This document shows, one piece after another, positions 9,640 to 27,104 of a DNA stretch of 64,000 bases. Source of the stretch: Sphaerisporangium sp. TRM90804 (GTDB lineage: Bacteria > Actinomycetota > Actinomycetes > Streptosporangiales > Streptosporangiaceae); NCBI RefSeq assembly GCF_029846175.1, contig NZ_JARWAC010000010.1:248001-312000 (forward strand). Reading direction: 5' to 3'. Under the pieces are notes generated by a model. That model was given only the letters and a program-made list of their open reading frames with translations, had not been told where the DNA came from and did not search any database. Both the position numbers and the translations under genes were made by a program. Position 1 is the first letter of the stretch, and every line of letters starts with the position of its first letter.

Positions 9640-9671
9640 AGCTCACACCTGCGACGGGGGAAGTGTTAACC

Positions 9672-10307
9672 GTGGCACCTCTGAACCAGACCGCCGGGCG
9701 GCGGGAGCGCAACCGCGAGATCATGCGCCGCCGCGTCTACGAGGCGGCGATCTCCCTGTTCGCCGAGAAGGGTTACGCCGCGACGTCCTTCGACGACATC
9801 GCGGCGCTGGCCGATGTCGCCCGCGCCACGGTCTTCAACCACTTCAAGCGCAAGGAGGAGTTCCTCAAGGCCTGGGGCGACGAACGTCGCCGGCGGCTGG
9901 ACACCATCCTCATCCAGGAGAGCGCCCGCGCGACCGACGTGCGAGACCAGCTCGTGCGCTGCATGCGCGTCCTCGGCGAGATCACCACCCAGGAGCGGCC
10001 CCTCATGCGGGAGCTTTTGCTGGCGTGGGTGCAGACCGGCGCTCCCGTACGGGAGGAGCCCCACAGCGCCTACATCTTCGCCGAGATCCTCACCGTGGGT
10101 AAGGCGCACGGCGAGGTGCGGCCGGAGGTGCACCCGCTGACGGCCGGTTACCTGCTGCGCGACATCTACCTGGGCACCCTGTACCGCTGGGTCGGCACGA
10201 GCGAGCAGCCGCCCTTCTCCCTGCAGGACGCCCTCGCCGACGCGCTGCGCATGGCCTTCGTCGGCATGCTCGCGGAGTCGCCGCCCATGGCGAACGTTGG
10301 ACGCTAG
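9672..10307 (+). CDS. TetR/AcrR family transcriptional regulator
   Basis: This protein of about 211 residues has the TetR DNA-binding domain at the N terminus: RRRVYEAAISLFAEKGYAAT, then SFDDIAALADVARATVFNHF and KRKEEFLKAW. The rest is a helical ligand-binding domain. I chose the GTG at 9672 because the purine-rich ACGGGGGA is 11 bp away; a GTG at 9663 would be too close to it and would add a rare TTA codon as codon 2. It sits between the PKS and a two-component system. Related palindromes precede the PKS, this gene and the kinase, so I infer it represses these units until an intermediate accumulates. Confidence 0.9.
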   Translation: MAPLNQTAGRRERNREIMRRRVYEAAISLFAEKGYAATSFDDIAALADVARATVFNHFKRKEEFLKAWGDERRRRLDTILIQESARATDVRDQLVRCMRVLGEITTQERPLMRELLLAWVQTGAPVREEPHSAYIFAEILTVGKAHGEVRPEVHPLTAGYLLRDIYLGTLYRWVGTSEQPPFSLQDALADALRMAFVGMLAESPPMANVGR

Positions 10308-11817: not shown

Positions 11818-12453
11818 ATGACCGTATACGTGGACTCCGCCGACCGGAAGGAAATTCGCGCGGCGGCACAACTCGGTTTCGTGACCGGCGTCACCACGAA
11901 TCCGTCCCTGATGCGAACCGTGACCGACGATCCGCTCCAGCACGCGAAACAGCTTCTCGCCGACGAGGCCCCCGCCGAGTTCTACTACCAGCCCACCGGG
12001 GCCTACGCCGGCCTGCGGGAGGAGGCGGAGTCGGCCTGGTCCCTCGCCCCCGACCGCGTCATCGTGAAGGTGCCGGCCACCACCGCAGGAGCGGCCCTGG
12101 CCAAGAGCCTCACCTCGCGCGGCGTCCCGGTCGCGCTGACCGCGGCCCAGACCCCGAACGCGATGATCGTCGCGGAGGCCGTCGGGTGCGTCGCGGTCAT
12201 CCCCTACGTCGACCGCGCCTGGCGCGACCCCCGGGTCGACAGCGAGCTCGTGGCCGGCCTCGCACGGGTGAGGCGCGGCACCACCCGCATCGTCGCGGCC
12301 TCGGTGAAGAACGCCGGCCAGTTCACGAAGGCGTTCACCGACGGGGCCGACGCGGTCACCGCGCCGCTCGACGTCCTCGCGCAGGTGCTGAACCACCCGG
12401 CGGCTCTGGAAGCCGAACGGGATTTCGCCGAGCGGTACGCGGGAGGGGCGTGA
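11818..12453 (+). CDS. Transaldolase/fructose-6-phosphate aldolase-like protein
   Basis: This 211-residue protein is the length of small (FSA/TalC-type) transaldolases. GFVTGVTTNPSLM at 20-32 is the family's N-terminal signature, and Lys84 in VIVKVPAT is the Schiff-base lysine; ASVKNAGQ near residue 160 forms another barrel strand. The enzyme should move a three-carbon dihydroxyacetone unit or cleave/join a ketose phosphate. The ATG at 11818 follows GGGGAA; an upstream in-frame ATG at 11782 lies inside the palindrome and lacks a ribosome site. It opens the 15.3-kb operon, only 1 bp from the HAD gene, suggesting its product is dephosphorylated next. Confidence 0.88.
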   Translation: MTVYVDSADRKEIRAAAQLGFVTGVTTNPSLMRTVTDDPLQHAKQLLADEAPAEFYYQPTGAYAGLREEAESAWSLAPDRVIVKVPATTAGAALAKSLTSRGVPVALTAAQTPNAMIVAEAVGCVAVIPYVDRAWRDPRVDSELVAGLARVRRGTTRIVAASVKNAGQFTKAFTDGADAVTAPLDVLAQVLNHPAALEAERDFAERYAGGA

Positions 12454-12454
12454 G

Positions 12455-13162
12455 ATGTACGAGGCCGTATTGTTCGACATGGACGGCGTGATCGTCGACA
12501 CCGAGCATTCCGTCACCGAATTCTGGCGGCAGCTCGCCGCGTCGGAAGGATTCTCGCTGAGCACCGCCGACCTCGAAAGGCACGTGTACGGAAATCGCGC
12601 CGACCACACGCTCCGCGAGCTGTTCCCGCGCATATCCCCCGACCGTTACGGTGAGATCTACGGGCGGCTGAGAAGGAACCAGGAAAGCCTGTTGTACGCC
12701 GCCGTTCCCGGGGTCCACACCCTGCTGGAGGGGCTCGGTCAGGCGGTGGTCCCGGTCGCCCTGGTGACCGGCGCGCAGGACTGGAAGGCGGCCGCGGTCC
12801 TCGGCCAGCTGGGGCTGACCGAGACCTTCGACACGCAGATCTGCGCGGACGACACGGCGCTGGGGAAGCCGCACCCCGCCTGCTACCTGCTGGCCGCCGA
12901 ACGCCTGTGCGTCGACATCGAGCGGTGCCTGGTCTTCGAGGACGCGGTGAGCGGCGTGACCTCCGCGGTGGCCGCCGGCGCGGCCTGCGTGGGCCTCGCC
13001 CCGCCGCACCGTGCCCGCCAGGTGCTGGACGCCGGGGCCCTGACGGTCGTGCGCGACTTCACGGAGGTCGTCTTCGATCCGCGCGAGCGCACCATGAGCG
13101 CCGGCCGCGAGGAGCTTCTCTTCGCGCCGGTTCCGGGCGGCGACCGCCTCCCGGCCTACTGA
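12455..13162 (+). CDS. HAD-superfamily sugar phosphatase/phosphoglucomutase-like hydrolase
   Basis: A 235-residue HAD-IA protein with the catalytic motif FDMDGVIVDTE (nucleophile Asp8, acid/base Asp10), the second motif LVTGAQ and the C-terminal LGKPHPACYLLA and VFEDAVSGVTSA motifs. This subgroup includes beta-phosphoglucomutases and small-sugar-phosphate phosphatases. It starts 1 bp after the transaldolase stop. Together with the neighbouring aldolases it probably acts on a sugar phosphate intermediate. Phosphatase versus mutase cannot be decided by eye. Confidence 0.88.
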   Translation: MYEAVLFDMDGVIVDTEHSVTEFWRQLAASEGFSLSTADLERHVYGNRADHTLRELFPRISPDRYGEIYGRLRRNQESLLYAAVPGVHTLLEGLGQAVVPVALVTGAQDWKAAAVLGQLGLTETFDTQICADDTALGKPHPACYLLAAERLCVDIERCLVFEDAVSGVTSAVAAGAACVGLAPPHRARQVLDAGALTVVRDFTEVVFDPRERTMSAGREELLFAPVPGGDRLPAY

Positions 13163-13190
13163 TCGGCAACGAGTCGAAAGGTCCACCGAC

Positions 13191-15059
13191 ATGGACCAGT
13201 TCTTCGTACCACCGATCGACCGATGGGAGCCCGGGAAGGCGGGCGGCCCCTCGGGCAGGGACGAGGTTCTCTACCGGTCCCACCTCGTCGGATCCGATCC
13301 GGCGCTCACCAAGGAGGGCGGGGGCAACTTCTCCGCCAAGGGCGTCACCGTCGACCACCTCGGGCGGCCCGCCAGGGTGCTGTGGATGAGCTCGTGGGGC
13401 TGCGACGGCGCGACCACCACACCCGACGACTTCCCCGTCCTGCGCCTGGACGACCTGCTGCCGCTGCGTGACTCCGGGCCGATGAGCGAGATAGACATGA
13501 TCGGCCATCTGGTCGGCTCCGGCCTGCACGGCGAGCAGCGCCGGCCGGGCATCGAGACCCTCACCCACGCCTTCATCCCGGCCGCGCACGTCGACCACTG
13601 CCACCCCGACGCGGTGATCGCGATGACCTCGTTCCCGCGAGGACGCGAGGTGGCCGACGCCGAGTTCGGCGACGAGGCGATCTGGTTCGACTACCGCCAG
13701 TTCGACGTCGGCGTCGCCAGGGAGCTGGCGGCCCGCATCGCCGCGAACCCGCGCTGCCGGTTCGTGCTGCTGGCCAACCACGGCCTGTTCACCTGGGCCG
13801 ACACCAGCAGGGAGTGCTACGAGAACTCGCTGGAGGCCGTCGAGCGCGCCACGCGGGCGGTGAACAAGGCGGTCGTCCGCGCGGCCGACCTGGGCGGCCC
13901 GGCCGTCACCCCGCCGCAGGCGGAGACCGCGCACGACCTGCTCGCCGAGATCCTGCCCGCGACCCGCGCCGCCCTGTCGGCCGGGACGCAGGGGCTCGTC
14001 CTCCACCTGGACCGCGGCGCCGAGGCCCTGTGGTTCGCCTCCTCGGTCCGCGGCCCCCGGTGGAGCCAGGACGGGCCGAGCTGCCCCGACCACGTGGTCA
14101 CGGTCGGGTACCGCCCGCTCGTGCTCGACGGCGTGCCCACCGGCGCCGCCGACGTGCTCTCCGCCATCGAGGGCTACCGCGCCTGGTACGACGACTACTA
14201 CGAGCGGCACGTGCCCGAGTCCGCCCGCGCGCTGGGAAGGCGGAGCAACGCGCCGCACGCGATCGTCCTGCCCGGCCTCGGGGTCGTGTCCTGCGGGACC
14301 GACGCCGCCAAGGCCAGGCTGTGCGCCGACCACATCGCCCAGACCATGACCGTGATCCGCGCCGCCGACGCCGCGGGCGGGTACCGGTCGCTCACCGAGG
14401 CCCAGGGAGCCCTCGACGAGTACTGGCCGCTGATGCGGCTGAAGCCCCAGCTGCGGCCGCCCGACGGCCCGCTGGCGGGCAAGGTCTTCCTGCTCGCCGG
14501 CCGCGACGACACGCGTACCGGCGAGGTGGCCGATCTGCTCGCCGCCGCGGGGGCGCACGTGGCCCTCAGCCCGGAGCGCGCGGGCGACCGGGCCGGACTC
14601 GCCGCCGAGGCGGCGGACATCTCCGGGCGGTACGGCGAACGGCGCGCGGTCGCGCTTTCGTCCGCCGCCTCGGACGCGCCCGGCGCCGTGCGCGACGCGG
14701 TGCTCGCCTACGGCGGGTTCGACGCCGTGGTCGACATGACCCGCTCCGGCGGCCTCGCCCTCGCCGCGCTGCCCGTCTTCGCGCGCCAGGGCACCCCAGG
14801 CTCGGTACTCCTCGCCAACGACGGCTGGCTCGCCGGCCGCCTGGGGCTGGAGGTCGCCGCGCTGGAGACCCGGGGGTCCGGCGCGTCCGTGCAGGCCGTC
14901 GCCGCGTCGAGCCCGGGCGCGGTGGCCAGGGTCGCGGCCTTCCACGCCTGCCTGACCGGCTCCGACGGCGTCTACAAGGGCACCGTGCTGCGCCCGAGAC
15001 GGGCCCGGGCAACCGGCAACGACCATCCCGACATGAAGGTGATCCTCAATGAACGTTGA
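13191..15059 (+). CDS. Class II aldolase fused to a degenerate short-chain dehydrogenase domain
   Basis: A 622-residue protein with the layout of bifunctional rhamnulose-1-phosphate aldolase/alcohol dehydrogenases. The N-terminal class II aldolase has metal ligands His133, His136 or His138 in HVDHCHPD and His197 in LANHGLF. The C-terminal part (about 435-600) is a Rossmann-like SDR remnant beginning LAGKVFLLAGRDDTRTG, but it lacks the TGxxxGIG nucleotide motif and I find no YxxxK catalytic pair. Dehydrogenase activity is therefore doubtful. Full-length relatives are longer. The stop overlaps the next gene's start by 11 bp. It probably cleaves or forms a ketose phosphate. Confidence 0.82.
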   Translation: MDQFFVPPIDRWEPGKAGGPSGRDEVLYRSHLVGSDPALTKEGGGNFSAKGVTVDHLGRPARVLWMSSWGCDGATTTPDDFPVLRLDDLLPLRDSGPMSEIDMIGHLVGSGLHGEQRRPGIETLTHAFIPAAHVDHCHPDAVIAMTSFPRGREVADAEFGDEAIWFDYRQFDVGVARELAARIAANPRCRFVLLANHGLFTWADTSRECYENSLEAVERATRAVNKAVVRAADLGGPAVTPPQAETAHDLLAEILPATRAALSAGTQGLVLHLDRGAEALWFASSVRGPRWSQDGPSCPDHVVTVGYRPLVLDGVPTGAADVLSAIEGYRAWYDDYYERHVPESARALGRRSNAPHAIVLPGLGVVSCGTDAAKARLCADHIAQTMTVIRAADAAGGYRSLTEAQGALDEYWPLMRLKPQLRPPDGPLAGKVFLLAGRDDTRTGEVADLLAAAGAHVALSPERAGDRAGLAAEAADISGRYGERRAVALSSAASDAPGAVRDAVLAYGGFDAVVDMTRSGGLALAALPVFARQGTPGSVLLANDGWLAGRLGLEVAALETRGSGASVQAVAASSPGAVARVAAFHACLTGSDGVYKGTVLRPRRARATGNDHPDMKVILNER

Positions 15060-18000
15060 GAAACTCGCCAGCCTGGACAGATTCGTACCGAAGGGCCAGC
15101 ACCTGCTGGCCTCCTGCTTCGACGCGCACCACACGATCGGCGGCGGACTGTTCGCCATCAACGGCTCGGTCGAGGAGATCGACCGGGTGTCCAGCACCGG
15201 CCTGACCACGGCCGACGGGATGCTCTTCCGATGTCTGTGGAGTGCCGAGGGCAGCCCCGCCGAGCTCGTCGCCTACGACGCGACCGGGGTCCGCCGCTAC
15301 CACCGGCTCGACGACGTCTCCACGCCGCACGACATCCTCGTCGTGGACGGCCGGGTGCTGGTGGTGGCGACCACGCAGAACGAGGTGCAGTGCGTGGCGC
15401 CCGACGGCGAGATCGTGTGGCGGTGGCGCGCCCCCGGCGAGGTGGACAGCTGGCACCTGAACAGCCTGGCCCTCGCCGGCGACCAGGTCGTGGTGTGCGG
15501 GTTCGGGCCGTTCCTGCGCCGCAGAGGCTGGGACGAGAGCGGCAAGCCGACCACCGGCCGCGTGGTGAGCCTGGAGACCGGCGAACCGGTGCTCCAAGGC
15601 CTGCGCGCCCCGCACAACCCCTGGTACGGCGACGGCCACTGGCTGGTGTGCGACTCCGCGGCGGGCGACCTGGTGGAGATCTCCGACGACACGCGTCAGG
15701 AGACCAGGCGGCTCGGCATGCCCGGATGGCCGCGCGGCCTGGCCGTGACCGACGACCACCTGTTCATCGGGGTCAGCCCGCACCGGCACATGGCCACCTC
15801 CGTCGAGACCGCCGGGGTGGCCGTGGTCGACCGCGCGGAATGGCGCGTGGTCGGGCTGGTGGAGCTGCCCGCGCGCGAGGTGTACGCGTTGGCCCTCGCC
15901 CCCTCCCCGCTGGCCGACGGCGCCCGGCAGGGGTTCGACGCCAACCACACCCGGGCGCACGAGCAGGGCCAGCGGCAGATGTTCGACCGCCTGGGCCACC
16001 GGCCGAACCGGCTGTGGGCGCTCGGCGACCCGCTGGCCAGGGAGGACTGCCGGGCCCGTGTCACCGTGGCCGAGCCGGTGGCGGGGGAGGTCGAGGCCGA
16101 GAGCCTGCTGACGGTGGAGTGCCTGGTGCGCAACACCGGGGCCGGCCTGCTCACCCCCGCCCCGCCGTACCCGGTGCGGGTGCTGCACCGGTGGTACGAC
16201 CTGGACGGCCGGGAGGTCGTCACCCAGCCGATCAAGGCGGCCCTGCCGCGGTCGCTGCCGCCGGAGGCGGTCGCCCGGGTGCCCGTGCGGGCGCGTGTCC
16301 CCGCCGAGGCCGGTGACTACCGATTACGCGTCACGCTGCTCCAGGACGGCGGCGTGCCGTTCGACGAGCTGGACGAGTCGTGCGCCGCCGACATCGCGGT
16401 CACGGTGGTGACCGCCGGGGCGTCCCACGAGGCGCTGCGGGAGTTCGGCCTCTACCCCTCGGAGGTCGGTGCCGCCCGCACAGCCGGCGGCACCGTGCAC
16501 GACATGGTGCGCGCCATGCTGAACCGGCCGGCCGGCGGGGTGAACGGGTTGGTCGTCGGCCTGATCGAGGACGCCGGCAGGCAGGCGTTCGTCACCGCGC
16601 TCGCCGCCGCGCTGCGCTGCTCGGCGTCCTCGCTGGAGCACGTCGTGAACGAGGTCGTGCCCGACGCGGGGGACGTGCTGCTCACCGGCGCCGAAGCCGT
16701 CGCGCTGGCCCTGCGGCGCGCCGGCGTCACGGTCGCCTTCACCTACGCGGGCACCTCGGAGCTGGCCCTGTGCGACGCGATGGCCCGGCTCGGGCTGCTG
16801 GTGAACGGGCGCGGGGACCGCGAGTCGCTCTTCCAGGCCGGCGGCGCGAGCCGCCTGCGGCCCGGCAACGGGGCGGCCATCCTGCACGGGGCGCGCGGGC
16901 TCACCAACGCGCTCGGCGCGCTGGCCGACCTGCGCCGCAACGAGCTGGGGACGGTCGCGCTCGTCGGGCTGCCGTCCACGGGATCGCAGCCGTTCCTGCC
17001 GCCGCACGCCGAGCCGGACCTGATCCCGGTCTCCGGCGCCTTCGCCAAGGCCTGGCACGAGCTGGGCGCGGTGCCGGAGGAGCCGGCCGAGCGGCGGGCC
17101 GCCGTGGAGGCCCTGGTCACCGCCGTCCAGGAGGCGACGAGGGAGGCGGCGCTGCCGCCGTACGGCCCGGTGCTGGTCGCCGTGCCGCAGGACGTGGCCG
17201 AGGCCGCGTGGGTGCCGCTGGACGCGCTGCCGAAGGCCGGCGGCGCACCGGCCGGGCTCGACCGTGACGGCGACGCGCTGGCCGCGGCGGCGTCGTTCCT
17301 GGGGCAGGCGCGCAGGCCCGTGATCCTCATCGACGACTACGCGCTGCCGCACGAGGGCGCCCGCGAGGCGCTCGCCGCGTTCTCCGCCAGGGCCGGCGCC
17401 CCGGTGCTCCAGGTGAAGTACCGGCGCGGCCCCATGCTGTTCGAGCGGCTCGACAGGAGCGACGTCCCCGCGTTCCTCGGCTGGTACGACCCGGCGAACC
17501 CCGAGCACCGCGCGGTGCTGGAGGCCGCCGACCTCCTGGTCACCGTGGAGGACCGGAACATGTACCCGCGCGTGGTCGGCCCGCTGCCCGGCTGCCCGAA
17601 GATCGCGCTGACGTCCAACCCGGGCGCGACGGAGAAGAACGGCTACCTGACCACCGGGGACGTCCTGGTGGGCGGCGACGTGGTGGCGGCCCTGCGCGAG
17701 CTGACGGACGCGGCACGCCCCCGCCCCGGCTCCTCGGTCCCCTGGTACGCCGGCGTCGCGTCCGGTGAGAAGACCCCGGGACCGCGGGTGCCCGAGGAGG
17801 CCGCCGCGCTGCGCAACGGCATCGCCCGCCGCGTCGGCGAGGTGGCGGGCCGGCTGAACCGGCGGGTCGTACTGGTCGACGACAGCCAGATGTTCGGCGG
17901 CATGCTCGCCGAGGAGTACGACGAGTTCCCGCCCGGGCTGCGGGTGGCCGGCGGCCACGGCGGCTTCGTCGGCAGCGGCATCACCCTGGCCACCGGCCTG

Positions 18001-18480
18001 GCCCTCGGCGAGCCCTCGGTGAAGGTGCTCTGCTCCCTGGGCGACCAGGGCTTCACCAACAGCATGCAGGGCCTGGTCGCGGCCGTGCAGGAGTCGGCGC
18101 CCGTCACCTTCCTGGTCTGCAACAACGGCGGCAGCGTGTCGCTGCGCAAGCAGTCGGGCCCGTCCGGCTGGCTGGACGGCGGCCACCACCGCTACCTCGA
18201 CAACGCCGCGGGCATGGACTACGTCCAGATCGCCGAGGCGCTGGGCGTGCGCAGCCGGCGGGTCGACCTGAGCGGCTGGCTCGACCGCGACCACGCCGCG
18301 ATGCGGCTGGAGATGTTCGCCCGCACCCTGGACGCCATGGTGGACGGCTCCGGGCCCACGCTGATCGAGCTCGTGCTGCCCGCCGACCCCGAGTTCTGGA
18401 CCGGGGTCTGGATCAACCAGGGCTTCGAGAAGCCGTTCGAGGCGCGCGAGCCGGCGAAGGCGGGTGGGCACGATGCGTGA
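15049..18480 (+). CDS. Beta-propeller / Ig-like / thiamine-diphosphate enzyme fusion
   Basis: A 1143-residue fusion. Residues 1-320 form a propeller-like domain of the DUF4915/TIGR03032 kind (STPHDILVVDGRVLV, HLNSLALAGDQVVVCGFG, APHNPWYGDGHWLVCDS). Residues 345-445 look like an Ig-like carbohydrate-associated sandwich. From about 542 a complete TPP enzyme of the acetolactate synthase/decarboxylase type follows: Pyr domain with Glu595 in RESLFQAGG, central domain, and PP domain with the TPP motif GDQGF (998) to NN (1025). It should carry out decarboxylation or carboligation of a 2-keto acid or ketol transfer. A rare TTA leucine codon at 16324-16326 may make translation bldA-dependent. I know of no characterised enzyme with this order. 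Confidence 0.85.
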   Translation: MNVEKLASLDRFVPKGQHLLASCFDAHHTIGGGLFAINGSVEEIDRVSSTGLTTADGMLFRCLWSAEGSPAELVAYDATGVRRYHRLDDVSTPHDILVVDGRVLVVATTQNEVQCVAPDGEIVWRWRAPGEVDSWHLNSLALAGDQVVVCGFGPFLRRRGWDESGKPTTGRVVSLETGEPVLQGLRAPHNPWYGDGHWLVCDSAAGDLVEISDDTRQETRRLGMPGWPRGLAVTDDHLFIGVSPHRHMATSVETAGVAVVDRAEWRVVGLVELPAREVYALALAPSPLADGARQGFDANHTRAHEQGQRQMFDRLGHRPNRLWALGDPLAREDCRARVTVAEPVAGEVEAESLLTVECLVRNTGAGLLTPAPPYPVRVLHRWYDLDGREVVTQPIKAALPRSLPPEAVARVPVRARVPAEAGDYRLRVTLLQDGGVPFDELDESCAADIAVTVVTAGASHEALREFGLYPSEVGAARTAGGTVHDMVRAMLNRPAGGVNGLVVGLIEDAGRQAFVTALAAALRCSASSLEHVVNEVVPDAGDVLLTGAEAVALALRRAGVTVAFTYAGTSELALCDAMARLGLLVNGRGDRESLFQAGGASRLRPGNGAAILHGARGLTNALGALADLRRNELGTVALVGLPSTGSQPFLPPHAEPDLIPVSGAFAKAWHELGAVPEEPAERRAAVEALVTAVQEATREAALPPYGPVLVAVPQDVAEAAWVPLDALPKAGGAPAGLDRDGDALAAAASFLGQARRPVILIDDYALPHEGAREALAAFSARAGAPVLQVKYRRGPMLFERLDRSDVPAFLGWYDPANPEHRAVLEAADLLVTVEDRNMYPRVVGPLPGCPKIALTSNPGATEKNGYLTTGDVLVGGDVVAALRELTDAARPRPGSSVPWYAGVASGEKTPGPRVPEEAAALRNGIARRVGEVAGRLNRRVVLVDDSQMFGGMLAEEYDEFPPGLRVAGGHGGFVGSGITLATGLALGEPSVKVLCSLGDQGFTNSMQGLVAAVQESAPVTFLVCNNGGSVSLRKQSGPSGWLDGGHHRYLDNAAGMDYVQIAEALGVRSRRVDLSGWLDRDHAAMRLEMFARTLDAMVDGSGPTLIELVLPADPEFWTGVWINQGFEKPFEAREPAKAGGHDA

Positions 18481-19882
18481 GGTGCCGTTCCGCCAGGTGC
18501 CCCTGGCCCCCTACGAGCAGGTGCTCGGCGAGCGGCGGACCGCGCGGCTGAGGGTCGAGCTCGGCCGCACCGGCCGGCTGCTCGGCGACGGCGCCGTCTG
18601 GAACGTCAACTCGACCGCGGCGGGCGGCGGCGTCGCTGAGCTGCTGCACACGCTCGGGCCGCTGGCCCGCGCCGCCGGCCTGAACACGCGGTGGCTGGTG
18701 GTCGACGGAGACCCGGAGTTCTACACCGTCGCCAAGCGCCTGGTGTCCATGCTGTACGGCATCGCCGGCGACGGCGGCGCCCTGGGCGCCGAGGAACGGC
18801 GGCACTACCGGCGCGCGATGGACTCCAACGCCGAGGCGCTCGCCGAGTACGTCCGCCCGGGCGACGTCGTCATCGTGCACGAGGCGCAGCCGGCCGGGCT
18901 CATCGAGGCCGCCCGGGCCCTGGGGGCGAGCGTGGTGTGGCGCAGCCACATCGGAAGCGACACCCCCAACCGGTTCACCCGGGAGGGCGGCGCGTTCGTG
19001 AGCCCGTACGTCGCGCAGGCGGACGCCACGGTGTTCTCCACCCCGGCGCACGTGACCGGGTGGGCGCCGCGGCCGCAGATCATCGCGCCGTCGATCGACC
19101 CCTGCGGGCCGAAGAACATGGCGCTCAGCGCCGGGCAGGTCGCCGCCGTCCTGGGTGCCACCGGCATCCTGGCCGGCGGCCACCGGCCGCTGACGGTGCC
19201 CGTCCCGATCGGCCCCGACGTCGAGGTGCGACGGCCCGCCCAGGTGCTCAGGGACGGCCCCCCGCCGCCCGCCGACGTGCCGATGGTGGTCCAGGTGTCC
19301 CGCTGGGACCGGCTCAAGGACATGGGCGGCGTCATGCGCGCGTTCGTCGACTCGGGCGTGGACGGCTACCTCACCCTCGCCGGCGCCGACCTTTCGGGCG
19401 TGACCGACGACCCCGAGGCCGCGGAGGTGTACGAGCGATGCCGCCGGGCCTGGGAGGACCTCCCGCCCGAGCACCGCCGCCGCTGCCAGCTGGTGTGCCT
19501 GCCCATGGCCGACCTGCGCGAGAACGCCGTCGTCGTCAACGCGCTGCAGCGGCACGCGTCCGTCGTCGTGCAGAAGAGCCTGGCCGAGGGGTTCGGGCTC
19601 ACCGCCACCGAGGCGATGTGGAAGGCGCGCCCCCTGCTCGCCGCCGCGGCCGGCGGCCTGCGCGACCAGGTGCGCGACGGTGAGACCGGCCTCCTGCTGG
19701 GGGACCCGGCGGACCTCGCGGCCGCCGCCACCGGCATCCGGATGCTGTCCACCGACCGCGCCCTGGCCGGACGGCTGGGCGCGGCGGCCCGGCGTCGGGT
19801 TCACGACCAGTACCTGCCCGACCGGCAGCTGCTCGACTGGGCGCGGCTCATCGAGAGCCTCGCGGGGGTGAGGGCGGCATGA
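18473..19882 (+). CDS. GT4 glycosyltransferase, trehalose synthase (TreT)-like
   Basis: A protein of about 469 residues. The N-terminal signature [20 protein letters not shown], then [29 protein letters not shown] and [10 protein letters not shown], is that of TreT, which joins NDP-glucose and glucose to trehalose reversibly. The C-terminal GT-B half has [12 protein letters not shown] and the GT4 end motif [29 protein letters not shown]. The ATG at 18473 overlaps the previous stop by 8 bp; a GTG at 18464 is also possible. In this operon the acceptor may be an unusual sugar made by the aldolase/TPP enzymes rather than glucose (inference). Confidence 0.85.
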
Positions 19883-20856
19883 CCCGCACACTGGGACGAG
19901 ACGGGCCGCGGGTCTTCGACGTCGGCCTGGGCTGCATGGGGATGTCGCAGTTCTACGGCGCCTGGGACGACGCCGAGTCGATCCGGACGATCCACCGCGC
20001 CCTCGACCTCGGGGTCCACCTCCTGGACACCGCCGACATGTACGGGCCGTACACCAACGAGGAGCTGATCGGCCGGGCGGTCAGGGGCCGTCGCGACCAG
20101 GTGCTGATCGCGACCAAGTTCGGCAACGTCAAGGGGCCGGACGGGCGGGTCATCGGCGTCGACGGCAGCCCTACGTACGTGCGGAGGTCCTGCGAGGGGT
20201 CGCTGCGCCGGCTGGGCGTCGAGACCATCGACGTCTACTGCCAGCACCGCGTGGACCGCTCGGTGCCCGTCGAGGAGACCTGGACGGCCATGGCCGAGCT
20301 GGTGCGGCAGGGCAAGGTGCGGTACCTGGCGATCTCCGAGGCCGCGCCCGACACCGTGAGGCGCGCCCACGCCGTCCACCCCGTGTGCGCCGTGCAGACC
20401 GAATACTCGCTGGTCAGCCGGGATCCCGAGGAGAAGCTGCTGCCGTTGCTGCGCTCCCTCGGCATCGGGTTCATCGCCTACGCCCCGCTCGGCCGGGGGC
20501 TGCTGACCGGCCGGATCGCCGCACCCGGCGACCTGGGCGGGGACGACTTCCGCCGCACGCTGCCCCGATTCCAGCCGGTCAACCTGCGGCGCAACGCCGA
20601 GCTGGCGGAACGGGTGGCCGGGCTCGCCGCGTCGTTCGGGGCCACCCCCACGCAGCTCGCGCTGGCCTGGGTGCTGGCGCAGGGCGACGACGTCGTGCCG
20701 ATCCCCGGCACCAAGAGCCTGGCCCGGCTGGAGGAGAACCTCGCGGCCCGCCGCCTGGAGCTGACGCCGTCGGACCTGGCGGCACTGGAGGAGCTGGCGC
20801 CGCCGGGATGCGCCGCCGGAGACCGCTACCCCGACATGTCCGGGGTCGACGTATAG
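19879..20856 (+). CDS. Aldo/keto reductase
   Basis: A 325-residue (alpha/beta)8 NADPH-dependent oxidoreductase. The AKR signature is clear: [12 protein letters not shown], then [21 protein letters not shown] (catalytic Asp and Tyr), IATKFG (Lys) and YCQHRVD (His), and the cofactor-binding end [16 protein letters not shown]. It reduces a sugar aldehyde or ketone to the alcohol, or the reverse. It overlaps the glycosyltransferase stop by 4 bp (ATGA). With the downstream alditol oxidase it could set the oxidation state of a sugar or polyol. Confidence 0.9.
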
Positions 20857-20867
20857 GTGAGGCGGAC

Positions 20868-22445
20868 ATGAAACATGACGAGTGGTGGCGAGAGGCCGTC
20901 CTCTACCAGATCTACCCGCGAAGCTTCGCCGACTCCGACGGCGACGGCGTCGGCGACCTGCCCGGAGTCATCGACCGGCTCGGCTACCTCGCCGAGCTGG
21001 GCGTCGACGCCGTCTGGCTGTCGCCGTTCTACCCCTCCCCGCTGGCCGACTTCGGGTACGACGTCAGCGACTTCCAGGCGGTGGACCCGTCGTACGGAAC
21101 GCTGGAGGACTTCGACGAGCTGCTGCGCCGGGCGCACGAGCACGGCATACGCGTGGTGGTCGACCTGATCATGAACCACACCTCGGTCGAGCACCCCTGG
21201 TTCGCCGAGTCCCGGTCCAGCCGCACCAGCCCGAAGCGCGACTGGTACATCTGGGCCGACTCCCGCCCCGACGGCGGCCCGCCCAACAACTGGCTCAGCG
21301 CCTTCGAGAAGTGCGGCCCGGCCTGGACGTTCGACGAGCCGACCGGCCAGTGCTACCTGCACAGCTTCACCCCGGGCCAACCCGATCTGAACTGGCGCAA
21401 CCCCGAGGTCCGCGCCGCGATGCGGGAGGTGTGGCGCTTCTGGCTCGACCGCGGCGTCGACGGCTTCCGCGTGGACGTGGCGCACCGCCTGATGAAGGAC
21501 GCCGAGCTGCGCGACAACATCGCCGAGCTGGCGCACGCCAGGCGGCACGTGTCGCACCCCCTGGGGCGCCAGCGCCACCTCGACCTGCCCGAGACGTTCG
21601 ACGTCCTGCGCGACCTGCGGCGCACCCTCGACTCCTACGAGGGCACGTTCGCCCTCGGCGAGGTGCCGATCAGCGACGACAGGCGCCTGGCCGAGTACTT
21701 CGGCGGCGACGGCATGCACACGGCCTTCCACATCGCGTTCTGGGAGCAGCCGTGGCGCGCGGCGGCGTTCCGCGAGACCGTCGACCGGCTGGCCGCGTAC
21801 GCGCGCCCGGGCGCGCTGCCCACGTACGCGCTGGCCACGCACGACATCTCCCGCACCGTCACCCGGTACGGCGGCGGCGGGCGCCCGAGGGTGGCCGCGG
21901 CGATGATGACGACCCTGCGCGGCATCCCCTGCGTCTACTACGGCGAGGAGATCGGCATGGCCGACGCCCCGCCCCCGCTCGACGGGCTGCTCGACGTCGA
22001 CGGCAGGGACGGCACCCGCGTCCCCATGCAGTGGGACGAGACCGGGGCCGGCTTCTCACGCGCGGCGCCCTGGCTGCCGTTCGCGAGCGACCAGCACGAC
22101 GTCAACGTCGTCAAGCAGCTGGACGACCCCGACTCACTGCTCAGCCTGTACCGGCGCCTGATCGCCTTCCGGCGCGACTCACCGGCTTTGCGCCGGGGGG
22201 AGTACCGGTCGCTGGACTGCGGCGGCGACGTCTTCGCCTACCTGCGGTCGGTCCCCGGCGAACGCCTGCTCGTCGCGCTGAACTTCGCGCCGCACCGCAC
22301 CGAGGTCGCGCTGCCCGAGCTGCCGCCGCACGGCCGGCTGGAGCTGTCCACCGGCACGGGGGAGGCGGGCTCCCCGGTGGACCCGCGCTCGCTGTCCCTC
22401 GCGCCCGACGAGGGCGTGATCGTGCGGATCGGGGGCACGCCATGA
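20868..22445 (+). CDS. GH13 alpha-glucosidase (oligo-1,6-glucosidase-like)
   Basis: A 525-residue alpha-amylase-superfamily enzyme without a signal peptide, hence cytoplasmic. It begins WWREAVLYQIYPRSFADSDGDGVGDL, typical of GH13 alpha-glucosidases. The catalytic residues are Asp203 (GFRVDVAHRL), Glu265 (FALGEVPIS) and Asp326 (ATHDISR; the usual NHD is THD here). It hydrolyses or transglycosylates an alpha-glucoside, possibly the product of the upstream TreT-like enzyme. The ATG at 20868 follows AGGTGAGG; the next ATG overlaps its stop. Confidence 0.9.
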   Translation: MKHDEWWREAVLYQIYPRSFADSDGDGVGDLPGVIDRLGYLAELGVDAVWLSPFYPSPLADFGYDVSDFQAVDPSYGTLEDFDELLRRAHEHGIRVVVDLIMNHTSVEHPWFAESRSSRTSPKRDWYIWADSRPDGGPPNNWLSAFEKCGPAWTFDEPTGQCYLHSFTPGQPDLNWRNPEVRAAMREVWRFWLDRGVDGFRVDVAHRLMKDAELRDNIAELAHARRHVSHPLGRQRHLDLPETFDVLRDLRRTLDSYEGTFALGEVPISDDRRLAEYFGGDGMHTAFHIAFWEQPWRAAAFRETVDRLAAYARPGALPTYALATHDISRTVTRYGGGGRPRVAAAMMTTLRGIPCVYYGEEIGMADAPPPLDGLLDVDGRDGTRVPMQWDETGAGFSRAAPWLPFASDQHDVNVVKQLDDPDSLLSLYRRLIAFRRDSPALRRGEYRSLDCGGDVFAYLRSVPGERLLVALNFAPHRTEVALPELPPHGRLELSTGTGEAGSPVDPRSLSLAPDEGVIVRIGGTP

Positions 22446-23698
22446 CGGCGCCGCGGAACTGGGCGGGCAACATCGCCTTCGGGTGCGCGCGCATGGAGAC
22501 GCCGTCGTCCGTCGCCGAGCTCCAGCGCCTGGTGGCGCGCGAGAGGCGGGTCCGCGCGATCGGCACCCGGCACTCGTTCAACGACCTCGCCGACACGCCC
22601 GGGGTGCTGGTGTCCCTGGCCGGTCTGCCGCCGGAGACCGAGGTGGACTCGGCCGCGCGCACCGTCCGCGTCGCGGCGGGCATGCGGTACGCCGAGCTGG
22701 CCCCCCGCCTCGACCGGGAGGGGTACGCCCTGCCCAACCTGGGCTCGCTTCCGCACATCTCGGTCGCCGGCGCCTGCGCCACGGCCACCCACGGGTCGGG
22801 CGTGCGCAACGGGTGTCTGGCCACGGCGGTGTCCGGGCTGGAGATGGTCACCGCGGACGGTGACCTCGTCACCGTGGACCGCCGCACCGGGCACTTCGAC
22901 GGGATGGTCGTCGGGCTCGGCGCGCTCGGCGTCGTCACCGCCCTGACCCTCGACCTGGTGCCGGCCTTCGAGACGCGGCAGCGTGTCTACGAGGGGCTGC
23001 CGCTGGAGGCGCTGGACGAGCACTTCGCCGAGCTGACCGCCGCCGCCTACAGCGTGTGCCTGTTCACCGACTGGCGGGCGCCGCGGTTCACCCAGGTGTG
23101 GATCAACGAGCGCACCGACGAGGCGGAGACCACGGTGGTGAAGGAGCCCTGGTTCACCGCCGAGCCGGCGACGGTCGAGCTGCACCCGGTGTCCGGCTTC
23201 TCCGCGGCCTCCTGCACCCCGCAGCTCGGCCTCCCCGGCCGCTGGTTCGAACGGCTGCCGCACTTCCGGCCCGACTTCGAGCCCAGCAGCGCCGGGGACG
23301 AGCTGCACTCCGAATACATGGTGCCCGCCGGGGAAGCGGTGAACGCGCTGCGCTCGCTCGACCGGATCCGCGCGCTGATCCAGCCGGTGCTGCAGATCTG
23401 CGAGGTGCGCACCGTCGCCGCCGACGAGCTCTGGATGAGCCCCTTCTACCGGGAGGACTCGGTGAGCATCCACTTCACCTGGATCGCGGACACCGAGGCC
23501 GTGCTCCCGGTCGTCCGGCTGGTGGAGGAGCGGCTGGAGCCGTCCCGGGCCACGCCGCACTGGGCCAAGGTGTTCACCACCCCTCCGGAAACCCTGCGGT
23601 CGCGTTACCCGCGCTCGCCGGACTTCGCCCGGCTCGTACGCGAGTACGACCCCGCCGGCACGTTCGGCAACGCGTTCGTGGACCGCTATCTGAGTTAG
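22442..23698 (+). CDS. Alditol oxidase (FAD, VAO family)
   Basis: A 418-residue flavoprotein, the same length as Streptomyces coelicolor AldO, which oxidises xylitol and sorbitol at C1 using oxygen. The PP-loop segment RAIGTRHSFNDLADTPG includes His44, matching the histidine that covalently binds FAD in AldO. HISVAGACATATHGSGVRNG and the C-terminal THWAKVF-like phrase PHWAKVFTTPPE are family hallmarks. It makes an aldose plus hydrogen peroxide from a polyol. The ATG overlaps the GH13 stop by 4 bp. Its local polyol may come from the aldo/keto reductase (inference). Confidence 0.9.
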   Translation: MTAPRNWAGNIAFGCARMETPSSVAELQRLVARERRVRAIGTRHSFNDLADTPGVLVSLAGLPPETEVDSAARTVRVAAGMRYAELAPRLDREGYALPNLGSLPHISVAGACATATHGSGVRNGCLATAVSGLEMVTADGDLVTVDRRTGHFDGMVVGLGALGVVTALTLDLVPAFETRQRVYEGLPLEALDEHFAELTAAAYSVCLFTDWRAPRFTQVWINERTDEAETTVVKEPWFTAEPATVELHPVSGFSAASCTPQLGLPGRWFERLPHFRPDFEPSSAGDELHSEYMVPAGEAVNALRSLDRIRALIQPVLQICEVRTVAADELWMSPFYREDSVSIHFTWIADTEAVLPVVRLVEERLEPSRATPHWAKVFTTPPETLRSRYPRSPDFARLVREYDPAGTFGNAFVDRYLS

Positions 23699-23707
23699 GA
23701 GAGACCC

Positions 23708-24919
23708 GTGTCGGTGATCAAGAACATGGGGGTCCCGGACAGCGGGCTGTCCGCCGCCGCGCTGGTCCGGCTGCGCGTCGCGGTCACGCTGTTCTTCGCG
23801 CTCGGCGGCTTCCTGTTCGCCGGGTGGGCCGTCCGCATCCCGGCCCTGAAACAGCAGGTCGACGCGTCGCCCGGGTCGCTGGGGCTGGCGCTGCTGTGCC
23901 TGACCGGCTCGGCCGTGCTCACCATGGCCGTGACCGGGCGGCTCTGTGAACGGTTCGGCAGCCGCCAGGTGACGATCGTCGCGGCCGTCCTGCTCTCGGT
24001 CGCCGTCGTGCCCCCGACACTCACCGACTCCGCTCTCGCGCTCGGCCTGACGCTGATCGCCTTCGGCGTCGCGTTCGGCGGCATCGACGTCGCGGTCAAC
24101 AGCCTCGCCGTCGACCTGATCGCCGTGCTGCGGCGCCCGGTCATGCCGAGCTTCCACGCCGCCAACAGCTTCGGCAGCCTCGCCGGCGCCGCCCTCGGCG
24201 GGCTGCTCGCGGCGCAGCTCTCACCCGCCCAGCACATGCTCCTGATGGTGCCCGCCGGCCTGGCCGCCAGCGCGGTCGGCGCGCGGATGCTGCTGGCGTA
24301 CCCGCTGCCGGGCGCGGGGGCGGCGACGGAGCGGGCCCCCGGGTCGGCGCCCCGGCGCGGCCTGTGGGGCACCGTGCTGTTCTTCGGGCTCATCGGCCTG
24401 TGCGCCGCCTACTGCCAGGGCGCGCTCGACAACTGGGTCCCGCTGCACATCAAGGAGGACCTGGGCAGCGGCGAGACCCTGGCCGCCACCGGGTACGCGC
24501 TCGTCCAGCTCACCATGGGCCTGATGCGGCTGTCCGGCATCGCCCTGGTGGAACGGCTGGGCGCCACGCGCGTGACGGTCTTCGGCGGCGTGATCGCCTG
24601 CGCGGGCGGGCTGACGGCCGCGCTGGCGCCGTCCGTACCGCTGGTGTTCGCCGGCCTGGTCGCCACCGGGGTCGGCCTGGCCAACATCTTCCCCATCGCG
24701 ATGGCGCAGGCCGGGGCCGCCGGCGGGCCGGGCGGGATCGCCCTGGCGGCGACCCTCGGCTACTGCGGCATCCTGGCCGCGCCCCCGTCCATCGGCCTGC
24801 TGGCCGACGTCGTCGGTCTGCCGTCCGCGCTGACCCTGATCCCGCTGTCGGCGGCCGTGGCCGCCGCGATCGCCTACGCGATCAGGCCGCGAGCGGAGCG
24901 ACTTCCCCTGCGTACGTGA
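23708..24919 (+). CDS. MFS transporter
   Basis: A 403-residue permease with about 12 hydrophobic segments. Its N terminus (LRVAVTLFFALGGFLFAGWAVRIPALKQQV) and VTGRLCERFGSRQVT (motif A) resemble sugar/inner-membrane MFS proteins of the YbjJ/FucP-like kind. I chose the GTG at 23708 because AGGAGAG lies 4-10 bp upstream. Being inside the sugar operon, it probably imports the substrate or exports the product; direction cannot be told. Confidence 0.85.
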   Translation: MSVIKNMGVPDSGLSAAALVRLRVAVTLFFALGGFLFAGWAVRIPALKQQVDASPGSLGLALLCLTGSAVLTMAVTGRLCERFGSRQVTIVAAVLLSVAVVPPTLTDSALALGLTLIAFGVAFGGIDVAVNSLAVDLIAVLRRPVMPSFHAANSFGSLAGAALGGLLAAQLSPAQHMLLMVPAGLAASAVGARMLLAYPLPGAGAATERAPGSAPRRGLWGTVLFFGLIGLCAAYCQGALDNWVPLHIKEDLGSGETLAATGYALVQLTMGLMRLSGIALVERLGATRVTVFGGVIACAGGLTAALAPSVPLVFAGLVATGVGLANIFPIAMAQAGAAGGPGGIALAATLGYCGILAAPPSIGLLADVVGLPSALTLIPLSAAVAAAIAYAIRPRAERLPLRT

Positions 24920-24930
24920 CCGGAGCCCTC

Positions 24931-25842
24931 ATGCCGACATCCACATCGCTCTCCCAGATCGAGATCCTTCAGGCCGAGTCCATCCAGATCATCCGTGAGA
25001 TCGCGGCCGAGTTCGAGCGGCCGGTCCTGCTGTTCTCCGGCGGCAAGGACAGCGTGGTCCTGCTGCGGCTGGCGGAGAAGGCGTTCCAACCGGCCCCGCC
25101 GCCGTTCCCGGTGATGCACGTGGACACCGGGCACAACTTCCCCGAAGTGATCGACTTTCGCGACCGCCGCATGGCGGCGAGCGGCCTTGAGCTGATCGTC
25201 GCCTCGGTGCAGGAGTCGATCGACACGGGCCGGGTGGCGCAGGACACCGGCCGGTGGGCGTCCCGCAACCGGCTGCAGACCACCACGCTGCTGGACGCCA
25301 TCGACGCGCACCGGTTCGACGCGGCCTTCGGCGGCGCGCGGCGCGATGAGGAGAAGGCCCGCGCCAAGGAGCGCGTGGTGTCCTTCCGCGACGACTTCGG
25401 CCAGTGGGATCCGAAGAACCAGCGGCCGGAGCTGTGGAACCTGTACAACACCCGGATCCACGAGGGCGAGCACGTGCGGGTGTTCCCCCTGTCGAACTGG
25501 ACGGAGGTCGACATCTGGCAGTACGTCCTGCGGGAGGGGCTGGAGCTGCCCTCCATCTACTTCGCGCACCGCCGCAGGGTGTTCGAGCGGGCGGGGATGC
25601 TGCTGGACGACAACCCGCACACCCGCCGCGAGGACCACGAGCCGGCCTTCGAGACGACGGTCCGCTACCGCACCGTCGGAGACGCCTCGTGCACCGGCGC
25701 CGTCGAGTCCGCCGCCGCCACTCTGGACGAGGTCATCGAGGAGATCAAGGCCACCCGGGTCACCGAACGCGGCCAGACCCGGGCCGACGACCGCACCAGC
25801 GAGGCCGCGATGGAGGACCGTAAGAAAGAGGGGTACTTCTAG
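24931..25842 (+). CDS. cysD: Sulfate adenylyltransferase subunit 2 (CysD)
   Basis: A 303-residue PAPS-reductase-fold protein with the pyrophosphate loop SGGKDS at 36-41, HVDTGHNFPEVI, FGGARRDEEKARAKER and the ending RTSEAAMEDRKKEGYF, all diagnostic for CysD. With CysN it makes adenosine 5'-phosphosulfate from ATP and sulfate, driven by GTP hydrolysis. It starts 11 bp after the MFS stop, inside the sugar operon, not next to cysH, cysC or sulfite reductase as in primary sulfate assimilation. That makes a dedicated role in sulfur addition to the operon's product likely. Confidence 0.95.
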   Translation: MPTSTSLSQIEILQAESIQIIREIAAEFERPVLLFSGGKDSVVLLRLAEKAFQPAPPPFPVMHVDTGHNFPEVIDFRDRRMAASGLELIVASVQESIDTGRVAQDTGRWASRNRLQTTTLLDAIDAHRFDAAFGGARRDEEKARAKERVVSFRDDFGQWDPKNQRPELWNLYNTRIHEGEHVRVFPLSNWTEVDIWQYVLREGLELPSIYFAHRRRVFERAGMLLDDNPHTRREDHEPAFETTVRYRTVGDASCTGAVESAAATLDEVIEEIKATRVTERGQTRADDRTSEAAMEDRKKEGYF

Positions 25843-25844
25843 CC

Positions 25845-27104
25845 ATGACCTCCCCGGACATCCTGCGTCTCGCGACCGCCGGCTCGGTCGACGACGGCAA
25901 GTCCACGCTGATCGGCCGCCTGCTGTACGACTCCAAATCGATCTTCGAGGACCAGCTCGAAGCCATCGAGCGGGCCAGCGCCGACCGAGGAGAACAGCAG
26001 ACCAACCTGGCGCTGCTCACCGACGGGCTGCGCGCCGAGCGCGAACAGGGCATCACCATCGACGTGGCCTACCGCTACTTCGCCACGCCCCGCCGCGCGT
26101 TCATCATCGCCGACACCCCGGGCCACATCCAGTACACCCGCAACATGGTGACCGGCGCCTCCACCGCCGCCCTGGCCGTCATCCTCGTCGACGCGCGCAA
26201 GGGCGTCGTCGAGCAGTCGCGCCGCCACGCCTTCCTCGCCACCCTGCTCCGCGTGCCCCACCTGGTCGTAGCGGTCAACAAGATGGATTTGGTGGGCTAC
26301 GACCGGGCCGCCTACGAACGCGTCCGCGACGAGTTCACCGCCTTCGCCGCCAAGCTCGACATCACCGCCCCGACGTTCATCCCCATCTCCGCCCTGCACG
26401 GCGACAACGTGGTGGAACGCACCCCCACCATGCCCTGGTACGAGGGCCCGTCCCTCCTCCACCACCTGGAACACGTCCCCCTGACCTCCGACCACAACCT
26501 CACCGACCCCCGCCTCCCCGTACAGCACGTGATCCGCCCCGACCGGTCGCACGACTACCTCGGCTACGCGGGCCAGGTCGCGGGCGGCACGCTCAGGCCC
26601 GGCGACGAGGTGATCCACCTCCCGTCCGGTCGAACCACCACGATCACCCACATCGACGGCCCGGACGGCCCGGTGCGCGAGGCGTTCCCCCCGATGTCCG
26701 TCGTCCTCCGCCTCGCCGCCGACCTCGACGTCTCCCGAGGCGACATGATCGCCCACCCCGCCGACCGCCCCGGCACCACGCGGGACCTCACCGCCACGAT
26801 CTGCTGGATGACCGCCGACCGCCCCCTGTCCCCGGGCACGAAGCTGCTGATCAAACACACCACCCGCACCGCCACGGCCGTCGTCGAGCACCTGCGCCAC
26901 CGCGTGGACGTCACCACCCTGCACCGCGACGAACACCCGGAGACCCTGCACCTCAACGAGATCGGCGGCGTCACCCTCCGAACAAGCCGCCCCCTGTTCG
27001 TGGACCCCTACACCCGCAACCGCATGACCGGCGGCTTCATCCTCGTAGACGAGACCACCAACGCCACGGTCGCCGCCGGCATGATCACCGATCCCACCCC
27101 CTGA
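25845..27104 (+). CDS. cysN: Sulfate adenylyltransferase subunit 1 (CysN), GTPase
   Basis: A 419-residue EF-Tu-like GTPase: P-loop in GSVDDGKSTLIGRLLYDSK, DTPGHIQYTRNM (G3), NKMD (G4), then two beta-barrel domains. It activates CysD by GTP hydrolysis. It ends without a fused APS kinase (CysC) domain, and no cysC or sulfotransferase gene is in the window. The second half uses unusually many CCC/CAC-type codons, giving a C-rich coding strand. It is the last gene of the operon, 2 bp after cysD. Only a weak hairpin (GGCCG/CGGCC) follows. Confidence 0.95.
   Translation: MTSPDILRLATAGSVDDGKSTLIGRLLYDSKSIFEDQLEAIERASADRGEQQTNLALLTDGLRAEREQGITIDVAYRYFATPRRAFIIADTPGHIQYTRNMVTGASTAALAVILVDARKGVVEQSRRHAFLATLLRVPHLVVAVNKMDLVGYDRAAYERVRDEFTAFAAKLDITAPTFIPISALHGDNVVERTPTMPWYEGPSLLHHLEHVPLTSDHNLTDPRLPVQHVIRPDRSHDYLGYAGQVAGGTLRPGDEVIHLPSGRTTTITHIDGPDGPVREAFPPMSVVLRLAADLDVSRGDMIAHPADRPGTTRDLTATICWMTADRPLSPGTKLLIKHTTRTATAVVEHLRHRVDVTTLHRDEHPETLHLNEIGGVTLRTSRPLFVDPYTRNRMTGGFILVDETTNATVAAGMITDPTP

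Follow-up and report, generated by a model that had tools for sequence, protein, structure and literature searches.

In rhizobia, the nodPQ and nodH genes provide sulfate activation for the sulfation of Nod factor and surface glycans, and in Xanthomonas, raxP, raxQ, and raxST direct sulfate activation to tyrosine/peptide sulfation (PMC6192434 and PMC4216712). Here we describe an operon of Sphaerisporangium sp. TRM90804 in which two ATP sulfurylase genes, cysD and cysN, follow nine genes for sugar enzymes and a transporter. It occupies 11818-27104 on the plus strand of a 64,000-nucleotide stretch of DNA, analyzed whole and termed the window (G000:C3:248001-312000 of an 8.3-Mb assembly), whose G+C content is 69 to 78% in 2-kb steps. 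Judged from its sequence, the operon is probably an accessory biosynthetic locus for an O-sulfated, alpha-glucosylated sugar or polyol metabolite, and the predicted compound has probably not yet been described. The eleven genes, with their domain models and solved relatives, are as follows.

11818..12453, +, FSA/TalC-type transaldolase (TAL); PF00923; closest solved structure 4xz9, also 1l6w
12455..13162, +, HAD phosphatase; PF00702/PF13419
13191..15059, +, class II aldolase/SDR fusion (RhaEW-like); PF00596; NCBIfam PRK08324 and RhaD_aldol-ADH, both below cut-off
15049..18480, +, DUF4915 propeller, immunoglobulin (Ig)-like domain, and acetolactate synthase-type thiamine pyrophosphate (TPP) enzyme; PF16261, PF02776/PF00205/PF02775
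18464..19882, +, TreT-like GT4 glycosyltransferase; PF21269/PF00534; 6zj4, 2x6q
19879..20856, +, aldo/keto reductase (AKR); PF00248
20868..22445, +, GH13 alpha-glucosidase/alpha-glucosyltransferase-like protein; PF00128; 3wy1, 6aav
22442..23698, +, alditol oxidase-like flavoenzyme (AldO); PF01565/PF04030; 8ot8, 2vfr
23708..24919, +, major facilitator superfamily (MFS) transporter; PF07690
24916..25842, +, CysD, sulfate adenylyltransferase small subunit; TIGR02039 above cut-off
25845..27104, +, CysN, sulfate adenylyltransferase large subunit; TIGR02034 above cut-off; no PF01583 match (no adenosine 5'-phosphosulfate [APS] kinase domain)

As in the nodPQ/nodH system, extra ATP sulfurylase genes are tied to a sulfated carbohydrate product, which is predicted in our case; unlike in that system, no recognized sulfotransferase was found in the operon and no APS kinase in the window copy. 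The rax genes offer a similar likeness, ATP sulfurylase and APS kinase genes supplying one specific sulfation, but there the sulfation is of tyrosine/peptide and the gene set differs. The operon would work like nodPQ/nodH or raxPQ/raxST and is not classed as a member, because the unit was searched for a sulfotransferase, and the window unit also for an APS kinase, and neither was found. To our knowledge, nodPQ/nodH has no counterpart to the TAL, TPP, aldolase, and AldO chemistry of the operon.

The mycobacterial sulfolipid-1 system employs CysDNC, Stf0, and Pks2 acting on trehalose. It and the operon both involve sulfate activation and a glycosyltransferase family of the trehalose type, and the Nonomuraea-type loci add a neighboring type I polyketide synthase (PKS). 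The PKS here differs in having only ketosynthase, acyltransferase, and acyl carrier protein domains (KS-AT-ACP) and was not found at 3 of the 7 loci with the full operon. We know of no counterpart in that system to the aldolases and TPP enzyme. The lincosamide octose pathway uses the LmbR transaldolase and resembles the operon in placing a transaldolase among the biosynthetic genes of an unusual sugar; it differs in that the eleven genes include no nucleotide-sugar genes and add sulfate activation and a TPP fusion.

Operon architecture and conservation

The eleven genes follow one another on a single strand, with junctions between -17 and +28 bp (TAL/HAD, +1; HAD/aldolase, +28; aldolase/TPP, -11; TPP/GT4, -17; GT4/AKR, -4; AKR/GH13, +11; GH13/AldO, -4; AldO/MFS, +9; MFS/CysD, -4; CysD/CysN, +2), the GH13 gene being read from the ATG at 20868, past the AKR stop. 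The preliminary description of the window was right about the run of eleven genes and about their families, on which Pfam and NCBIfam agree throughout; the translational coupling that it also claimed is predicted from the overlaps at five junctions.

The closest solved relatives of the sugar enzymes are transaldolase/FSA, acetolactate synthase-type TPP enzymes, TreT-type enzymes, and alditol oxidase, with alpha-glucosidase 3wy1 and alpha-glucosyltransferase 6aav nearest to the GH13 protein. TAL belongs to the TAL_FSA superfamily (PF00923) and scores 87.8 bits against the fsa_talC_mipB equivalog, below its cut-off of 246; its match to BmSF-TAL, a sulfo-TAL of sulfoglycolysis (5e-9), is weaker than those to other TAL/FSA chains (2.5e-17). 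The GT4 protein contains the TreT N-domain (PF21269) and scores 174 bits against the Thermococcales TreT equivalog, below the cut-off of 775. Within the TPP half of the fusion, PF00205 reaches 26.1 bits, under its cut-off of 30.4, and the sulfoacetaldehyde acetyltransferase model is matched weakly (37 of 620 bits). The AldO gene product is near 8ot8 and 2vfr in sequence and is predicted to oxidize alditols. Neither a sugar kinase, an ABC importer, nor a nucleotide-sugar gene is assigned among the eleven genes by Pfam or NCBIfam.

When the TPP fusion was searched in 297 genomes of the order, 4 contained a match, 2 of them to the full fusion (this genome and G142) and 2 to the TPP half only. With a TPP-domain alignment as query, named genomes yielded 19 loci, with which the window proteins were compared by tblastn. 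The complete core set of eight genes (TAL, HAD, aldolase/SDR, DUF4915/TPP, GT4, AKR, GH13, and AldO) was present at 6 of these 19 loci, besides the window: Nonomuraea cavernae (L017, the G142 place), "Nocardia" NRRL S-836 (L018), an Egibacteraceae metagenome-assembled genome (L019), Micromonospora tulbaghiae (L020), N. zeae (L027/L042), and N. thailandensis (L029/L043). Identities between the window proteins and these six operons are mostly 55 to 82%. The gene cluster is rare and recurrent, and its recurrence in six other genomes places the gene set beyond chance. The other 13 loci, some shortened by contig ends, have a TPP relative (about 39 to 56%) and no propeller match; L022 also has TAL, HAD, MFS, and TreT-like glycosyltransferase genes, and L031 also has TAL. 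In N. zeae and N. thailandensis, a GT2/GT7C-type gene parts TAL from the remaining operon, and TAL adjoins an extra TPP gene.

Sulfate activation in the operons

The CysD and CysN proteins of the window score 438 bits against TIGR02039 (cut-off, 397) and 543 bits against TIGR02034 (cut-off, 336), identifying them as ATP sulfurylase subunits. A sulfate-activation gene lies directly after AldO or after the MFS gene (within two genes) in all seven full operons. The earlier proposal to group CysD-CysN with the sugar genes is thereby well supported, and the contrary expectation, that a TPP-anchored search for the conserved gene order would reveal homologous operons lacking CysDN, did not hold, since all six relatives carry activation genes. 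The order is AldO, MFS, and CysD-CysN in the window and N. cavernae, and CysD-CysN lies directly 3' of AldO in N. zeae and N. thailandensis. NRRL S-836 has CysC-CysD-CysN (apsK, 186 bits against a cut-off of 139), M. tulbaghiae has a lone CysD followed by DUF4432, and the Egibacteraceae genome has a fusion of ATP sulfurylase (Sat) and APS kinase (PF01747 plus PF01583; PRK05537, 912 bits against a cut-off of 669), which is not homologous to CysDN. No CysD, CysN, CysC, or Sat was found in the available stretches of the 13 other TPP loci by tblastn or phmmer; repeating the Cys, PKS, and sulfotransferase negatives by phmmer on six-frame translations left every outcome unchanged.

Because unlike and partly non-homologous enzyme types recur at the same operon place, their distribution argues for a supply of APS or 3'-phosphoadenosine 5'-phosphosulfate (PAPS) rather than hitchhiking. 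In trees of 10 CysD and 9 CysN sequences (a small sample, with some weakly supported CysN groupings), the four operon copies of Nonomuraea type cluster (support of 0.99 for CysD, weaker for CysN) beside copies nearer sulfotransferases, and the NRRL S-836 and M. tulbaghiae copies fall on other branches. Replacement in place would mimic independent recruitment; in both cases, the function is kept or regained.

A single CysN match (E, 1e-60) occurs in 71 of 80 family genomes, as opposed to three in this genome. The three Nonomuraea operon genomes have two copies each, NRRL S-836 has five, M. tulbaghiae has two (none in the operon), and the Egibacteraceae genome has none. The activation copy is additional to another and linked to the operon across lineages, as would be expected of a dedicated sulfation locus of the nodPQ/nodH kind. 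No CysH or sulfite reductase of an assimilatory cys cluster lies beside the window CysDN, PF01507 in the operon being CysD alone. A second CysDN pair in this genome (C14, L036-L037) adjoins a CysQ-like gene, lies ~6 kb from the nearest sulfotransferase match and ~20 kb from the sole strong APS kinase of the genome, and is a possible PAPS source; by eye, its surroundings look like a polysaccharide locus. The third pair (C10) is ~8 kb from CysH (PF01507; PRK02090, 253 bits against a cut-off of 154).

The preliminary description had suggested an unusual, possibly sulfated or sulfonated sugar. The link to sulfate activation stands, the unusual sugar being a prediction from enzyme families, and sulfation is now favored over sulfonation because APS kinase is encoded within two operons and a CysQ-like gene for 3'-phosphoadenosine 5'-phosphate phosphatase lies near one. 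This CysQ-like gene is 8.6 kb 3' of CysN in NRRL S-836 (TIGR01331, 86 bits against a cut-off of 229, a best match only), and between the two lies an MFS gene 65% identical to that of the window.

The Egibacteraceae Sat-APS kinase gene (L019, 17189-18901) has a second copy on contig C26 (L046, 18017-19729) that is 99.65% identical and lies 4 to 9 kb from three Sulfotransfer_3 matches; the pair looks like the result of recent copying.

Predicted pathway, alternatives, and the propeller domain

From the operon, its conservation, and its recurring sulfate activation, all directly observed, we infer a pathway, including its step order, skeleton, substrates, product, and sulfotransferase. The two aldolases and the TPP enzyme would act on the skeleton of a small sugar or polyol, making or rearranging its carbon-carbon bonds; the HAD enzyme would take off phosphate, and AKR and the alditol oxidase would adjust the oxidation state of the skeleton. 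The TreT-like GT4 protein would attach glucose, the GH13 protein would trim or transfer it, and the MFS protein would transport substrate or product. CysD-CysN would form APS, which APS kinase, encoded elsewhere in this genome and in the unit in two relatives, would convert to PAPS for O-sulfation. The DUF4915 propeller is the likely bridge between carbon chemistry and sulfation, as a sulfotransferase partner or an acceptor-binding module. A direct search for sulfated glycosides, the predicted product class, can begin with named strains, among them Nonomuraea cavernae and Micromonospora tulbaghiae.

Reductive use, in which a CysH encoded elsewhere turns the APS or PAPS from CysDN into sulfite and a C-S bond yields a sulfonated or thiol sugar, is unlikely. 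CysH is encoded on C10, near another CysDN pair, and the TPP superfamily includes the sulfoacetaldehyde acetyltransferase that the fusion weakly matches, but no reductase is recognized among the operon genes, and the two in-operon APS kinases and the nearby CysQ-like gene favor sulfate transfer, though PAPS is also reducible. A catabolic role, in which a polyol or alpha-glucoside is taken up and degraded and CysDN is merely a convenient local sulfur supply, would suit the AldO, AKR, GH13, class II aldolase, MFS, and HAD families, which are frequent in sugar catabolism. We regard this as quite unlikely: it has to accommodate a TreT-like glycosyltransferase, an acetolactate synthase-type TPP enzyme, and eleven genes that include neither a sugar kinase nor an ABC importer, and it leaves varied, partly non-homologous sulfate activation in all seven operons unexplained. 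That CysDN is an assimilatory or spare copy at the operon end by chance and common descent is very improbable, since the grouping of the four Nonomuraea-type copies and the presence of just two CysN genes in each of N. cavernae, N. zeae, and N. thailandensis, where the operon copy could serve assimilation, are countered by the different types that occupy this position in NRRL S-836, M. tulbaghiae, and Egibacteraceae and by the extra CysN copy relative to the family norm.

PF13469 (Sulfotransfer_3) has no match near the operon in the seven genomes, the nearest in N. cavernae being ~50 kb away, and two sulfotransferase queries detected none in L018-L035, L012, L013, or L039-L043, other sulfotransferase families, Stf0 among them, not being searched. 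The sulfotransferase of the predicted pathway would be encoded elsewhere, belong to one of those other families, or be the propeller itself.

In the fusion protein, the propeller and Ig-like domain (the latter called by eye) span residues 1 to 460 and the TPP enzyme residues about 545 to 1110. Its AlphaFold2 model has a mean predicted local distance difference test score (pLDDT) of 82, and a fold search returns a six-bladed propeller. DUF4915 (PF16261) is matched at 71.6 bits (gathering cut-off, 35) and TIGR03032 at 56.2 bits (cut-off, 251.5), which indicates a divergent branch. The fold-search matches of the propeller-Ig part are generic propellers, six-bladed or otherwise (LDL-receptor type, Kelch, and designed), from which no function is readable; arylsulfotransferase is not among the matches listed, which excludes nothing, and the DUF4915 profile retrieves nothing clear from the PDB (best E, 0.0065).

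DUF4915 is in one frame with Sulfotransfer_3, or at most 1.1 kb from it, in 8 of the 12 actinobacterial genomes examined. The sulfotransferase search did not extend to G402 (over the cut-off), and the matches listed leave out both of G652 and three of the five of G687. Three further loci are of the fused type (L106-L108). In G525, a glycosyltransferase-propeller-Ig protein lies directly 5' of CysD-CysN-CysC, and no Sulfotransfer_3 match was found in G525 at an E of 1e-5. Among 18 aligned members, seven of which are operon copies, H136, N138, P188-H189, R229, and E277 are invariant, and H94 and R246 are nearly so. The G525 arrangement and the invariant residues raise the speculative, decidedly unlikely idea that the DUF4915 propeller-Ig part is itself a sulfotransferase of a new kind, with a propeller fold and PAPS as donor, whose fusion to a TPP enzyme lets one protein couple carbon-carbon bond formation to sulfation. 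Sulfation offers a functional lead for DUF4915/TIGR03032; no paper on DUF4915, TIGR03032, or the operon gene set was found in the open-licence literature with the terms used.

Several observations weigh against the biosynthesis of a sulfated glycoside. Most single operon enzymes are compatible with catabolism too, and the searches made detected no sulfotransferase in the seven operons. The window unit was found to contain no APS kinase, such as those present in the NRRL S-836 and Egibacteraceae units, and must therefore borrow one if PAPS is the goal; the M. tulbaghiae unit has CysD without CysN, and two full CysDN pairs lie elsewhere in that genome. As for the propeller, no DUF4915-Sulfotransfer_3 link appears among the matches listed, down to an E near 7e-10, for 32 alphaproteobacterial genomes, 7 of 10 plasmid DUF4915/TIGR03032 loci have no annotated sulfotransferase within 8 kb (their gene tables being incomplete), and the available stretches of propeller relatives L081 and L101-L105 contain no Cys genes. 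The fusions of N. zeae and N. thailandensis have a TPP half (L027, 16163-18826; L029, 16323-19145) that has lost its central region and whose cofactor-binding motifs look eroded by eye, and a stand-alone TPP gene, TAL, and a glycosyltransferase gene lie upstream within the cluster. The coexistence of a degenerate TPP half with a stand-alone TPP gene suggests that propeller and TPP activity cooperate yet may come on separate chains.

Neighboring genes and other settings

Four genes precede the operon.

6635..9628, +, type I PKS (KS-AT-ACP; Pfam), 5' neighbor of the operon
9663..10307, +, TetR regulator; PF00440; matches in L017, L027, and L029
10373..11041, +, histidine kinase; PF07730/PF02518; 65% in N. 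cavernae, no match in L027 or L029
11038..11697, +, NarL-type response regulator; PF00072/PF00196; matches in L017, L027, and L029

The three regulatory genes end 120 bp ahead of TAL and are retained in N. cavernae; given these same-strand regulators just upstream, the transcription unit may be longer than eleven genes. N. thailandensis has additional genes for a class III aminotransferase, a GMC oxidoreductase, and an MFS protein, which separate the response regulator from the TPP gene (L029, 5591-9649).

The window PKS is 67 to 72% identical to a PKS 5' of the operon in N. cavernae, N. zeae, and N. thailandensis (by MAFFT, phmmer, and BLAST without composition statistics), was not found in L018-L020 by phmmer on six-frame translations, and was detected only in the window and these three Nonomuraea loci. 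It scores 684 bits against the Pks2 model, whose cut-off is 2400, and may supply an acyl chain for the product or be an independent neighbor. BLASTP and tblastn with composition statistics missed the 67%-identical KS-AT alignment of ~1000 residues with the N. cavernae PKS, which was recovered with the statistics off; BLAST negatives from high-G+C genomes call for caution on this account.

A GT2/GT7C-type gene occurs at 7 of the 13 TPP-only loci, as with the stand-alone TPP relatives of L021 (8369-11534) and L031 (12473-15448), and also in L023-L026 and L034. RapZ-like and CofD/YvcK-like genes follow the TPP relative in L031, and a CofD/YvcK-like gene is present in L021, a neighborhood that resembles the gene order of the rapZ-yvcK-whiA region. 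This GT2/GT7C and CofD/YvcK-like setting is a second home of the TPP family. In 6 of 10 plasmid records (L071, L073, L074, L075, L077, and L079), TIGR03032 genes adjoin very large surface-type proteins, including autotransporters and cadherin-like, Ig-like, and choice-of-anchor Q proteins.

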